34,421 bases of DNA, taken from Candidatus Cloacimonadota bacterium. GTDB taxonomy: Bacteria > Cloacimonadota > Cloacimonadia > Cloacimonadales > TCS61. Position numbers and translations under genes: made by a program. A model generated the notes under the pieces. The model was not told where the DNA came from and ran no database searches. It was given only the letters and a program-made list of their open reading frames with translations. The stretch is taken from assembly GCA_018645365.1 (NCBI GenBank), contig JABGOP010000018.1, forward strand, positions 1-34,421, in the 5' to 3' direction. The first letter of the stretch is position 1; each line of letters begins with the position of its first letter. Below, piece after piece: positions 25,721 through 30,428 of this stretch.

Positions 25721-27612
25721 TTTTCTTTGAATTGCATCTCGTGCAATTTTTTGTATTTTTCACAAGTTTTTAGGAGTTCGGTATGTTTACCAATTTCGAT
25801 AATTTTGCCATTGTCCATTACCACGATTTTATCAGAAGACAGAATTGTGGATAAGCGGTGTGCGATTACGATGACCGTTCGATTTTTGGTGGCTTGTTCG
25901 ATTGCTTTTTGCACTTTGTGTTCTGCCTCAGAATCGAGTGCACTGGTTGCTTCATCAAAAATTAAGATGGGAGGATTGCCCACGATTGCCCTCGCGATGC
26001 ATAATCGCTGTTTTTGTCCGCCAGAAAAGTTTGAGCCTTTTACCGAAAGCTGGGAGTTATAATTTTTAGGTAATTTTTCGATAAATTCATCTGCATAAGC
26101 AATTTTTGCAACTTTTTTGATTTCATCATCGCTAATTTTGCTGAGTGAACCGTAACGAATATTTTCGGCAATTGTTTCTGAAAATAAGATAGATTCTTGC
26201 GTTACTGTTCCCATTAAAGTTCGTAAATTTCGTAATTTGAAATTTTTCACATTTTCGCGATCAATCAAGATTTCACCTGAATCCACATCGTACATTCGCG
26301 TTAAAAGGTTGATGAGAGTTGTTTTTCCCGAGCCACTATTTCCAACTAAAGCTATTTTCTCACCTTTATTTATGGTGAAATTGATGTTAATTAAAATTTT
26401 CGTGGTTGGTGTGTAAGAAAAACTTACATTTTTGAACTCGATTATTTGCTCAAAAGTTGCTTTTTTGATTGGATTTTTAGTTTCTGTAATTTCTGAAGTT
26501 CGGTCGATAATTTCCGAAATTCTATCTAAGGAAACATTTGCTTTTTTGATGTTTGCGTAGATTTTCGTAAGTACTTTCATCGGGTGCTGAATGGAGAAAA
26601 TAGCCAGCATAAAAGCGATAAAGCTTCCGAATGAAAAGTTGAGGTTTGGGTTCAAAACTTGATTTCCGCCGATGATGAGAATGATGACGCCCGTTGTAAC
26701 ACCGATTGTCTCCGAAAGTGGAACATTGAATGCACTGTAAGCTACTGATTTTCGCCAATATTTGAAATGTAATTTATTGATTTCGCGAAATTTAGTCATC
26801 TCGAATTTTTCGCGAGAAAAAGCTTTTACGATACGCATATTATTGAGTTTTTCCTCAACATTCGAGAACATATTTGATGACTGTTGCTGAATTCGTTTTG
26901 AATATTTTTTTATTTTATTTCCCAAAAAATAGAGAATTAAACTGAAAATCGGGAATAATATCAAACTGATGAGGAATAGTTTTGCGTTGATGAAAATAGC
27001 GATGCGTGCAAAAACGAAAATGAGGATAATGTTTTTGAGTGATTCAAAAATAGAGGTAACCAAAAAATTACCAATGATATCCACATCTGAAACCATTCTA
27101 ACGAGTGAATCGCCGACTTTGTTTTTGTTGAAGAATGCCAAAGATTGGTACAAATACTTACGATAAATGAGATTGCGAATATCTTTGATTGTGTGTCCTC
27201 GCAGATTGGCAAACAAAATTCTTTGTCCAAAAAAGAAGAAATTTTTCAGTAAAGTTATCGACAGTAACGAACCACCAATAATCCATAAAAGAAGGTGGCT
27301 ATCGGTTTTTTCTAAAATAAGACTAAGGTTGTCCAAAAGAGGTTGGAGTGTATCTTTATTGGACATTTTCAGCAAACTTCCGTATTGTGATGTGAATGCG
27401 GAAATTGTTTCTGTTACCGCATTCCAAAATGCAGGAAAATTAGTGTAAATTATTTGGTTGGTCGTTTTTTTGAAAACATTATCCATCAGTGGAATTGCCA
27501 AAGTGATGCTGGCTCCACTGAAAATTGCAAATCCAACCATAAAGAACAACCCCGAAATGAGATAGTTCCAATGTTGGAGCGTAATTTTCAAAATTCTTTT
27601 CATGTTTTTCAT
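25717..27612 (-). CDS. MsbA-like ABC exporter (fused transmembrane and ATPase domains)
   Basis: A type IV half-transporter with about six membrane helices (residues 1-360), a large periplasmic loop after TM1 containing the insert NTDT-like region, and a complete ATPase domain: Walker A GNSGSGKTT near 415, Q-loop TQE, signature SNFSGGQKQR, Walker B ILIFDEATSALD, and H-loop IAHRLS. 631 aa is slightly longer than E. coli MsbA (582), owing to the TM1-TM2 loop. Context with kdtA and glycan genes suggests lipid A/LPS or another lipid-linked glycan as substrate. First gene of the operon. I start at ATG 27612; the ORF track starts at the TTG just before it. Confidence 0.85.
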   Translation of the reverse strand: MKNMKRILKITLQHWNYLISGLFFMVGFAIFSGASITLAIPLMDNVFKKTTNQIIYTNFPAFWNAVTETISAFTSQYGSLLKMSNKDTLQPLLDNLSLILEKTDSHLLLWIIGGSLLSITLLKNFFFFGQRILFANLRGHTIKDIRNLIYRKYLYQSLAFFNKNKVGDSLVRMVSDVDIIGNFLVTSIFESLKNIILIFVFARIAIFINAKLFLISLILFPIFSLILYFLGNKIKKYSKRIQQQSSNMFSNVEEKLNNMRIVKAFSREKFEMTKFREINKLHFKYWRKSVAYSAFNVPLSETIGVTTGVIILIIGGNQVLNPNLNFSFGSFIAFMLAIFSIQHPMKVLTKIYANIKKANVSLDRISEIIDRTSEITETKNPIKKATFEQIIEFKNVSFSYTPTTKILININFTINKGEKIALVGNSGSGKTTLINLLTRMYDVDSGEILIDRENVKNFKLRNLRTLMGTVTQESILFSETIAENIRYGSLSKISDDEIKKVAKIAYADEFIEKLPKNYNSQLSVKGSNFSGGQKQRLCIARAIVGNPPILIFDEATSALDSEAEHKVQKAIEQATKNRTVIVIAHRLSTILSSDKIVVMDNGKIIEIGKHTELLKTCEKYKKLHEMQFKEK

Positions 27613-27665
27613 CAATGTTTTCCACCAATTTATTTAAAAAAGAAAAATTTATGATTGGGTGTTTA

Positions 27666-27671
27666 TGTCAA
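27666..27671 (-). promoter_or_regulatory. -35-like hexamer upstream of the glycan operon
   Basis: On the - strand a perfect TTGACA occurs 54 nt before the ABC exporter ATG, in the 185-bp divergent gap with rpsO. TAAATT follows at 14 nt, which is short for sigma70 but also fits the TAnnTTT shape of Bacteroidetes promoters. Weak call; no operator was recognised. Confidence 0.25.
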
Positions 27672-27694
27672 TAAGAAATTAGCGGGTAGGAAGA

Positions 27695-27793
27695 ATGGCT
27701 AACTTATTTAGAAAAAATCCTTTACAAAGAAAAGCCTATTTTTTCCGTTGCACAACGCACTGGAAATGGTGTGATAAAAATAAAGGAGGATGA
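27695..27793 (+). other. Candidate 32-codon upstream ORF before rpsO
   Basis: ATG at 27695 opens a 32-codon frame ([19 protein letters not shown]...) that ends in TGA at 27791-27793, immediately after the rpsO Shine-Dalgarno site (AAAGGAGGA) and 4 nt before its ATG. It has a poor AGGAAG site. A frame this short could arise by chance, and no family is recognised. Confidence 0.2.
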
Positions 27794-27797
27794 TAAA

Positions 27798-28067
27798 ATG
27801 GCATTAACAAACCAAGCTAAAACGGCTGTCATGGTAGAGTTTAAACTCCATGATTCAGATACTGGATCACCCGAAGTTCAGGTTGCACTCATTACGGAAA
27901 GAATTAAATCGATCACCGAACATTTGAAAATTCACAAGAAAGATTTTCATTCTAGACGCGGGCTTTTGCAGTTAATCGGAAGACGAAGAAGATTGTTGAA
28001 ATATCTTAGCAATAAAGATGTGAAGCGATATCGTGAACTGATTAAATCTCTCGGACTTCGTAAATAA
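27798..28067 (+). CDS. rpsO: 30S ribosomal protein S15
   Basis: S15 is a primary 16S rRNA binder and forms an intersubunit bridge. The start is set at [15 protein letters not shown] (27798), with AAAGGAGGA 7 nt upstream; the ORF track begins 27 nt earlier at a GTG. The 89-aa product contains [19 protein letters not shown] and [22 protein letters not shown], both diagnostic, and is the exact usual length. pnp follows, the classic rpsO-pnp pair. Confidence 0.97.
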
Positions 28068-28079
28068 AATGGAACTTGG

Positions 28080-28113
28080 TAGAGGGTGAATTAATTCACC
28101 CTCTATCGTTTTT
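28080..28113 (+). terminator. Terminator after rpsO
   Basis: TAGAGGGTGAATTAATTCACCCTCTA is a perfect 26-base palindrome followed by TCGTTTTT, 13 nt after the rpsO stop. It can form a stem of about 11 bp with a 4-base loop. It would end part of the rpsO transcripts before pnp, as the t1 terminator does in E. coli. Confidence 0.8.
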
Positions 28114-28132
28114 GAACGGGTGGGGAATGCTT

Positions 28133-28179
28133 AGCAATAAACTAAATCTAATTTTGAGAATTGGTTTTAGTTTATTGCT
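28133..28179 (+). promoter_or_regulatory. Long hairpin in the pnp leader
   Basis: AGCAATAAACTAAA (28133-28146) pairs perfectly with TTTAGTTTATTGCT (28166-28179), and after a 3-base mismatch AATT pairs with AATT, so 18 of 21 positions pair around a 5-base loop. It lies about 40 nt before the pnp ATG. In E. coli a double-stranded stem here is cut by RNase III and underlies PNPase autocontrol; the same role is inferred. Confidence 0.6.
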
Positions 28180-28217
28180 TATATTCTCCACTTAAATGCA
28201 TAAAATAAGGAGAAAAA

Positions 28218-30428
28218 ATGCACAATTTTAACATTACAAAAAAAACAATTGAAATTGCTGGAAAGACATTAACAATGGAAACTGGCAGAATGGCAAAACA
28301 GGCAAATGGATCTGTTTTTATTACTTACGGCGAAACGAGTGTTTTGGTCACCGCTACTGCTTCAAAAGAGGCAAGAGAAGGAACGGACTTTTTTCCGTTA
28401 ACCGTAGATTACATCGAGAAAATGTATGCTTCTGGGAAAATTCCAGGTGGATTTTTCAAACGAGAAGCAAGACCAACAACAAATGCGACTTTAAACGCAA
28501 GGTTAATCGATAGACCAATCAGACCACTTTTCCCAAAAGGCTTTAGAAATGCGGTTCATGTGGTGATTACCGTGCTTTCATACGATGGTGAGAATGACCC
28601 AGGTGCTTTGGGTATTTTGGGTGCTTCGGCGGCTCTTTCTATTTCTGATATCCCATTTCACGGACCTATTGCTAGCGTAAAAGTTGGTATCGTAAATGAC
28701 GAAATAGTTATCAATCCGACCACTGAACAAATGGAAGCATCTGTTTTAGATTTAGATGTGGCAGCTACTGCATCTTCCGTTGTGATGATCGAAGCTGGAG
28801 CAAAAGAAGTTTCAGAAGAAAAAATGATGGACGCTATTTACACTGGTCATGAAACAATTAAAAAACTTGTGGATTTTCAAAAAGAATTTATACAAGGTAT
28901 CGAAGTGGCAAAAATGGATGTTGTACTCGATGTCGTGCCAGCTGAAATTTTGGAAAAAATAGAAGCAAAATATGGCAACGACATTAAGAATGCAGCTAAT
29001 GTAAGTGGAAAATTAGAGCGTTACGAAGCAGTCGATAAAATCAAAACAGATATTTTGGAAAATGCAAAAAAAGAACTTTCTGAAGATGAATTTACATTAA
29101 ATGAAAGATGGTATAAAAATGCATTTGAAGAGATTTTCACAAAGTTTATTCGTTCAGCAATTTTGCACAATAATCATCGTGTTGATGGGCGTGGAATGGA
29201 TGACATTCGAGCGATAACTTGTGAAATTGATGTGTTACCTCGCGTGCACGGTTCGGCTCTTTTCACGAGAGGTGAAACGCAATCTTTGGGTGTCATCACA
29301 CTTGGAACTGGTCGTGATGAGCAAATTATCGATGGGTTAAAAGAAGAATACAAAAAATCATATTATTTGCATTATAATTTCCCACCATTTAGCGTTGGTG
29401 AGGCTGGTTTTATGAGAGGACCAGGGCGTCGCGAATTAGGCCATGGAGCGTTGGCAGAACGAGCGTTATTGCCGGTAATGCCGACGACAGAACAGTTTCC
29501 ATACACAGTTCGAGTTGTTTCCGAAATTTTGGAATCGAACGGTTCATCATCAATGGCGACAGTTTGTAGCGGTACTTTGGCGATGATGGCGGGTGGAGTT
29601 CCGATTTCTAAACCAGTAGCCGGAATTGCGAATGGTCTAATTATGGAAGGCGACGACTATTGCGTGCTTACCGATATTATGGGCTTGGAAGATCATCTTG
29701 GCGATATGGATTTCAAAGTAACTGGAACTTTTGATGGAATTACGGCGATGCAAATGGACATCAAAATTGAAGGAATCACAAAAGATATTATGGGAATTGC
29801 ACTCGCAAAAGCGAATGTTGCCAGAACTTATATTTTGAATAAAATTGTGGATGCGATTGAAAAACCACGAGAAGAACTAGCTGAAAGTGCTCCTAAAATT
29901 GATTCGATGAAAATAAATCCTGATAAAATTGGTGCGGTTATCGGTTCTGGTGGTAAAATGATTAAGCACATTATCGAAGTTAGTGGTGCTGACCTCGAAA
30001 TTAATGATGACGGTACAGTACGCATTGCATCTGCAGACAATGAAGCAATTGCACTTGCGAAAAAAATTGTAACCGACATTGTTTCCGACCCAGAAATGAA
30101 CGCAATTTATGAAGGAACGGTTACTCGTATCGAAGTTTATGGTGTTTTTGTGAAATTTATGAGTGACACAAAAGAGGGTTTAGTTCATATTTCTCAGGTT
30201 CATCAAAAGCGTATTGATAAAGTGGATGGAATGTTTAAACTCGGCGATAAAGTTAATGTTAAATTTATCGGGTTAGACAGAGGTAAGGTTAAGCTGACGA
30301 TGAAAGATGTGGATGGAAATCCAGAACCTTCACCAGAAAATATTCAAAAATATGATCCAAATAGAAGTAAACCAGAGGAAAAAAAATCAAGAGATTGGAA
30401 TCGAAACGATAGGAATCGTCGGAGATAA
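28218..30428 (+). CDS. pnp: Polyribonucleotide nucleotidyltransferase (PNPase)
   Basis: A phosphorolytic 3'-5' exoribonuclease and RNA degradosome component. The 736-aa product contains two RNase PH domains (residues about 10-140 and 315-460; FKREARPTTNATLNARLIDRPIRPLFP and HYNFPPFSVGEAGFMRGPGRRELGHGALAERAL), the linking alpha-helical domain, a KH domain (KIGAVIGSGGKMIKHI near 575), and an S1 domain (YEGTVTRIEVYGVFVKF near 635). The C-terminus is a short charged tail ending KSRDWNRNDRNRRR. SD AAGGAG. Two bases separate its stop from the next gene. Confidence 0.97.
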   Translation: MHNFNITKKTIEIAGKTLTMETGRMAKQANGSVFITYGETSVLVTATASKEAREGTDFFPLTVDYIEKMYASGKIPGGFFKREARPTTNATLNARLIDRPIRPLFPKGFRNAVHVVITVLSYDGENDPGALGILGASAALSISDIPFHGPIASVKVGIVNDEIVINPTTEQMEASVLDLDVAATASSVVMIEAGAKEVSEEKMMDAIYTGHETIKKLVDFQKEFIQGIEVAKMDVVLDVVPAEILEKIEAKYGNDIKNAANVSGKLERYEAVDKIKTDILENAKKELSEDEFTLNERWYKNAFEEIFTKFIRSAILHNNHRVDGRGMDDIRAITCEIDVLPRVHGSALFTRGETQSLGVITLGTGRDEQIIDGLKEEYKKSYYLHYNFPPFSVGEAGFMRGPGRRELGHGALAERALLPVMPTTEQFPYTVRVVSEILESNGSSSMATVCSGTLAMMAGGVPISKPVAGIANGLIMEGDDYCVLTDIMGLEDHLGDMDFKVTGTFDGITAMQMDIKIEGITKDIMGIALAKANVARTYILNKIVDAIEKPREELAESAPKIDSMKINPDKIGAVIGSGGKMIKHIIEVSGADLEINDDGTVRIASADNEAIALAKKIVTDIVSDPEMNAIYEGTVTRIEVYGVFVKFMSDTKEGLVHISQVHQKRIDKVDGMFKLGDKVNVKFIGLDRGKVKLTMKDVDGNPEPSPENIQKYDPNRSKPEEKKSRDWNRNDRNRRR

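Follow-up and report, generated by a model that had tools for sequence, protein, structure and literature searches.

A conserved RNA hairpin before pnp in one order of Cloacimonadota carries an anti-Shine-Dalgarno and may work as a nuclease-operated switch

The window analysed here, that is, the whole stretch of 34,421 nucleotides, is contig C20 of a 1.79-Mb assembly and carries the genes for ribosomal protein S15 (rpsO) and polynucleotide phosphorylase (pnp) one after the other. The PNPase of the window is complete and all its close relatives are from Candidatus Cloacimonadota. A sequence-only reading of this DNA had placed a long stem in the spacer, after the rpsO terminator (28077-28113) and before the pnp ATG (28218), and Pfam confirmed both S15 and PNPase as the products of the flanking genes. 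The features of the locus are the following.

27798..28067, + strand: rpsO, ribosomal protein S15 (Pfam PF00312, E 2.3e-36); precedes pnp in nearly all relatives examined
28077..28113, + strand: intrinsic terminator of rpsO, a 14-pair stem and a T run; similar terminator hairpins are at the same place in relatives
28118..28193, + strand: whole pnp leader hairpin (fold z -9.3; covariance model 65.1 bits; covariation)
28118..28129, + strand: 5' arm of the outer helix, GGGUGGGGAAUG, Shine-Dalgarno-like, masks the anti-Shine-Dalgarno (fold; outer-helix pairs covary)
28133..28139, + strand: 5' strand of the invariant core, AGCAAUA (75 distinct leaders, one G.U exception)
28140, + strand: site of the conserved mismatch, with partner 28172 (unpaired in 74 of 75 leaders, mostly A.C; A-U in the window only)
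28141..28171, + strand: inner covarying helix, 28141-28153 with 28159-28171, and apical loop 28154-28158 (fold, covariation)
28173..28179, + strand: 3' strand of the invariant core, UAUUGCU (75 leaders)
28182..28193, + strand: 3' arm of the outer helix, UAUUCUCCACUU, which holds the anti-Shine-Dalgarno UUCUCC at 28184-28189 (in silico opening of the Shine-Dalgarno; pairing with the own Shine-Dalgarno across leaders)
28207..28214, + strand: Shine-Dalgarno of pnp, AAGGAGAA (sequence; folds of Shine-Dalgarno opening)
28218..30428, + strand: pnp, polynucleotide phosphorylase of 736 aa with RNase PH, KH and S1 domains, ATG at 28218 (Pfam; relatives)

The hairpin in the rpsO-pnp spacer contains some 31-33 pairs. 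The region 28120-28200 folds at -34.8 kcal/mol against a mean of -11.5 for shuffled sequences (z -9.3), and none of 200 shuffles was as stable. The arms that had been noticed before, 28133-28153 and 28159-28179, do exist and form the innermost two thirds of this larger element. The stem they build stood up to inspection, although the earlier count of 18 paired positions in 21 did not, since there are 19 Watson-Crick pairs, one G.U and one U.U mismatch. A 3/2-nt internal loop divides this inner stem (28133-28179) from the outer helix, formed by 28118-28129 with 28182-28193. When the whole 34-kb window was searched for inverted repeats of at least 16 nt with arms no more than 60 nt apart, the hairpin arms were the sole non-overlapping pair listed, the other four pairs being overlapping palindromes. 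The element is not followed by a T run and was discarded as a terminator. Only 4 nt separate it from the end of the rpsO terminator, so that its transcript must be supplied by read-through of that terminator or by a promoter located further upstream.

The rpsO-pnp spacers of relatives were taken from two collections and a stem with the same core was present in most of them. The 7-bp core AGCAAUA/UAUUGCU shows no variation among 75 distinct leaders, apart from one A-U pair that has become G.U. This set favours the core, because the initial collection of leaders demanded GCAAT and ATTGC; spacers without the core were examined separately and a genome-wide covariance model was used afterwards. The position adjoining the core is unpaired in 74 of the 75 leaders (62 A.C, 7 C.C and five others). 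The window is the one leader without the mismatch, having an A-U pair at 28140/28172. Covariation in aligned relatives, which had been proposed as a check, was found in both the outer and the inner helices. In a 22-pair structure 14 pairs showed two-sided changes and 89% of the cells were paired (45 thinned sequences), and the covariation score was 0.348, where shuffles gave 0.165 and slid registers no more than 0.186; 0 of 500 shuffles were as good. The leaders are related sequences, and P values are for this reason to be taken as guides. In the paired columns G.U was found in 130 cells and A.C in 52, an excess indicating that the structured strand is the mRNA (sense) strand. For this strand analysis alignment A2, which holds both strands, was used and the best-scoring strand was chosen for each locus. 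The hairpin is thus a conserved, covarying RNA structure kept in the sense of the mRNA, and it is almost certainly a cis-regulatory RNA of pnp.

We have run the covariance model R1 on 125 genomes of the phylum and combined its matches with a search for pnp. Within the order the start of pnp was located in 93 genomes, and 85 of these have the element (a count made from two tables), R1 having been built partly from sequences that it later matched. Outside the order it was found in 0 of 16 genomes, G109 giving only a marginal match (E 0.03), and it is absent from the sampled sister class-level lineages of Cloacimonadota. Each genome has one site, before pnp, plus an echo of the same place on the opposite strand, and the next best matches of the model fall short by at least 35 bits and are mostly located within coding sequence or a tRNA. 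This distribution, with one site at pnp and within one order only, indicates an element that is specific to pnp and to the lineage. A regulon of several sites was considered and rejected: second-best matches in seven genomes reached 20-24 bits against 61-69 at pnp, and those examined sit in coding sequence or tRNA with one exception, in G064. There (L205:807-890, G064:C23:8406-8489) an isolated, near-perfect hairpin AGCAATAAGCGTGAA...TTCACGCTTATTGCT lies away from pnp and shares the core of the pnp leaders, being the only second site examined that is outside coding sequence and tRNA.

Within the order, no comparable hairpin was found in f3 and f7. In the leaders of f11 (L123) and of one f9 genome (L130) the stem is long and lacks the core; a variant of the core is present in L131, and the stem of one f6 genome (L124) is diverged. 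Loss of RNase III was rejected as the cause of hairpin loss, since genomes of f3, f7, f12 and f13, where the hairpin is absent, keep the enzyme. G036 (L152), G048 (L133) and the f13 genomes (e.g. L135-L138) have short rpsO-pnp spacers with no hairpin while RNase III is present. These relatives represent either natural losses or primitive absences and would be useful comparators. A further locus of the Cloacimonadota type, L076 (JABMPU010000054.1), is titled Armatimonadetes bacterium; its BLAST values equal those of L009/G010 and the genome is probably mislabelled.

An anti-Shine-Dalgarno lies in the 3' arm of the outer helix, where UUCUCC at 28184-28189 complements GGAGAA of the Shine-Dalgarno (SD) of pnp. 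The consequences were followed in thermodynamic folds, in which proteins and translation are ignored. In the window the predicted probability of the SD being unpaired was 0.994 with the stem intact and also 0.994 with the stem nicked and both arms kept, and it fell to 0.001-0.036 when the 5' arm was lost, whichever 5' end between 28155 and 28185 was tried. Changing the anti-SD in silico, with the 5' arm lost, brought SD opening back to 0.904. Over 79 leaders the mean SD opening was 0.62 with the 5' arm in place and 0.09 without it, and dinucleotide-shuffled arms gave 0.26 instead of the latter value (Wilcoxon p 8e-12). The own arm paired with the own SD at -8.67 kcal/mol, compared with -6.00 for the reversed arm and -5.90 for shuffled arms, so that pyrimidine content alone does not explain the pairing. 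Furthermore, arms swapped between leaders gave -7.94 kcal/mol against -8.67 for the own ones, and 0 of 20,000 permutations were as good. In 32 representatives of less than 80% similarity own pairs were still better than swapped ones (-8.25 versus -7.16 kcal/mol, P 0.00015), this thinning lessening the relatedness behind the statistics and leaving some of it. The other strands of the hairpin, including the inner strand and the 5' arm, had no excess of pairing with the SD.

Altered SDs go together with altered arms. The arm of L125 was the best of all 79 for the SD of L125, and both L075 and L150 have an altered SD, GGAGCAGAA, and an altered arm, UUUUUGCCCC. Leaders with diverged stems keep the switch as well, SD opening going from 0.54 to 0.03 in L123, from 0.66 to 0.02 in L130 (no core) and from 0.56 to 0.00 in L131 (variant core). 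On the other side, seven of the 79 leaders (L022, L023, L025, L026, L126, L128 and L129) had little or no extra closure of the SD and two f6 leaders had no SD switch in the folds, for which the anti-SD has to be described as frequent rather than universal. The folds made after loss of the 5' arm often paired UGC of the core 3' strand with GCA of AUGCA, a possible contact of the core with the start codon that amounts to three pairs with an invariant partner. Taken as a whole, the anti-SD is probably used as a switch.

The outer helix and its anti-SD, both missing from the sequence-only reading, suggest a mechanism. In the reading that we consider most likely (probability of roughly 0.6) nucleases operate the hairpin as a switch of translation, and PNPase in this way keeps its own synthesis in check. 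While both arms are paired, even if nicked, the SD would be free. RNase III would cut the long stem in mRNA that reads through from rpsO. The 5' arm, still in a duplex, would now have a free 3' end, from which PNPase, when abundant, would digest it. The released 3' arm would then pair with the SD, translation would stop and the message would decay. The role of the invariant core and the conserved mismatch would be to guide RNase III, or some other protein that binds dsRNA, into position. The stem (-34.8 kcal/mol) is far more stable than the alternative pairing (about -8.5 kcal/mol), so that switching at equilibrium is not expected and one of the arms must be destroyed. This requirement fits the action of RNase III followed by a 3' exonuclease, for which PNPase is the obvious candidate given that the gene is its own. 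RNase III was found in 115 of the 125 genomes, this one included (G000:C15:21093-21746, 220.6 bits, over the cut-off), and a homologue of RNase E/G in 14 of 16. We consider it rather probable that the stem is a substrate of RNase III. Structure, strand, specificity and masking of the SD come out of the computation; cleavage, digestion and feedback are what we infer, and we give about an even chance to the complete loop in which PNPase destroys the 5' arm.

RNase III needs little sequence specificity, and a fully invariant core of 7 bp is therefore not explained by this enzyme alone. A specific binder of the core may be involved, and this is the main rival to the switch as described. In its pure form a dsRNA- or KH/S1-type protein, either PNPase or another factor, would read the core and the mismatch and control translation or stability without any cleavage. 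The core in 75 leaders and the unpaired position in 74 of them exceed what RNase III is known to need, and autogenous translational repression by E. coli PNPase, independent of RNase III, has been reported (cited in PMC10362022). However, the window itself has an A-U pair in place of the mismatch, L123 and L130 have no core yet retain both a long stem and the SD switch, and the stem is too stable to open at equilibrium, all of which makes control by binding without cleavage rather improbable. Slightly better placed, albeit still unlikely, is that RNase III only processes the transcript, its cut separating pnp from rpsO read-through or setting the stability of the mRNA, with no feedback by PNPase and the anti-SD unused. 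The long stem and the presence of RNase III agree with this, and so does the similarity in layout to Streptomyces, where an RNase III-cut hairpin lies between rpsO and pnp (PMC5872136), but it leaves unexplained why the complementarity to the own SD goes beyond that of swapped or shuffled arms, as well as the invariant core and its mismatch.

Two other explanations move the function away from the leader RNA. The sequence-only reading had offered as its alternative a DNA operator overlapping a pnp promoter with TATATT at 28180-28185, a hexamer that has five of the six bases of a -10 box, and an inverted repeat is a possible operator. Actually, no promoter was predicted at 28150-28190 and no -35 hexamer lies at a usable distance from TATATT, which is not kept in aligned relatives. 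The variable length of the loop and the G.U bias of the sense strand point to RNA, a conserved non-palindromic mismatch is at odds with an inverted repeat read as DNA, and the terminator is only 4 nt away, so that this alternative fell and an operator is very improbable. Even less credit can be given to transcription of the opposite strand into an antisense or trans-acting RNA of the kind of the E. coli SraG, which is antisense to the rpsO-pnp spacer. The model R1 does match the opposite strand too, because the stem is nearly palindromic, but opposite-strand scores were about 10-45 bits lower per locus (with a model built on sense sequences), G.U exceeds A.C on the sense strand and there was no match to SraG.

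The proposed nuclease-operated switch can be compared with what is known for pnp in other bacteria. The sequence-only reading was correct in that the stem stands where E. coli has its own pnp leader stem and is a cis element at the level of the mRNA. Both lie between rpsO and pnp, consist of a long imperfect stem upstream of the SD and have the same enzymes available (RNase III, and PNPase with KH and S1 domains). In contrast, a search of the E. coli locus (L092) with the model R1 gave no match at E up to 10, the foot of the E. coli stem does not pair with an SD, and neither a 7-bp invariant core nor an anti-SD is described for E. coli in the literature searched. When the 5' arm of the E. coli K-12 leader was removed in the folds, its 3' foot GAAGAUCGGG paired with codons 3-7 of pnp, UCCGAUCGUUC, at -13.9 kcal/mol; 6% of shuffles were as good, which makes this pairing a lead only. 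The suggestion that the E. coli control is conserved in a distant phylum could not be maintained, as the element belongs to one order only and no sequence similarity to the E. coli leader was detected. Its confinement to the order, its absence from sister lineages and the lack of an E. coli sequence match make an independent or convergent solution the better reading.

In another phylum, the Actino-pnp RNA (RF01688) is likewise a conserved cis-regulatory RNA of pnp (Weinberg 2010, PMC2864571). It had no match in the window at 27500-28600 with E up to 1, and none in 19 relatives at the gathering score. Streptomyces, also from a different phylum, has a hairpin upstream of pnp that is cut by RNase III, and an anti-SD logic is unmentioned in the available part of PMC5872136; the comparison of sequences was made via Rfam only. 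SraG (RF00082) and the S15 leader (RF00114) belong to the same operon region of E. coli and the hairpin matches neither of them, the search for SraG on the strand opposite to pnp having matched only the E. coli control. Actually, the hairpin matches no Rfam family: with E up to 1, the region of the window gave only sub-threshold chance matches (mir-335, rliD, MIR2863 and psbA 3'UTR). The element is not described in the literature searched, which was mostly outside subscription journals, so that absence there is weak evidence.

In E. coli the mRNA of PNPase is protected from RNase E-dependent cleavage by a short RNA, which PNPase degrades (Jarrige 2001, via PMC10362022), and how the loss of this 5' RNA leads to loss of translation has been described variously, as decay by RNase E or as probable translational repression (PMC10362022). 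In addition, RNase III represses PNPase in bacteria of several phyla, among them Borrelia, Streptococcus and Campylobacter (reviewed in PMC8708148). The Cloacimonadota sequence suggests a concrete step, namely that removal of the mask frees the anti-SD, and if this is true, cutting by RNase III, removal of the 5' arm and loss of translation would be physically connected. The leaders might then form an order-specific family of pnp leader RNAs with an irreversible switch thrown by an exonuclease, in which the 5' arm of an RNase III-cut stem is the mask and is destroyed by PNPase, a proposal that we see as about equally likely to be right or wrong. The RNA family itself is outside Rfam and comes from a phylum of which few members have been cultured; its existence suggests that autocontrol stems of pnp arose more than once. 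Upstream of and into rpsO (27737-27854 of the window) there is also a weak match to the Rfam S15 leader (15.5 bits versus a gathering score of 39.5), possibly a diverged site of S15 autoregulation.
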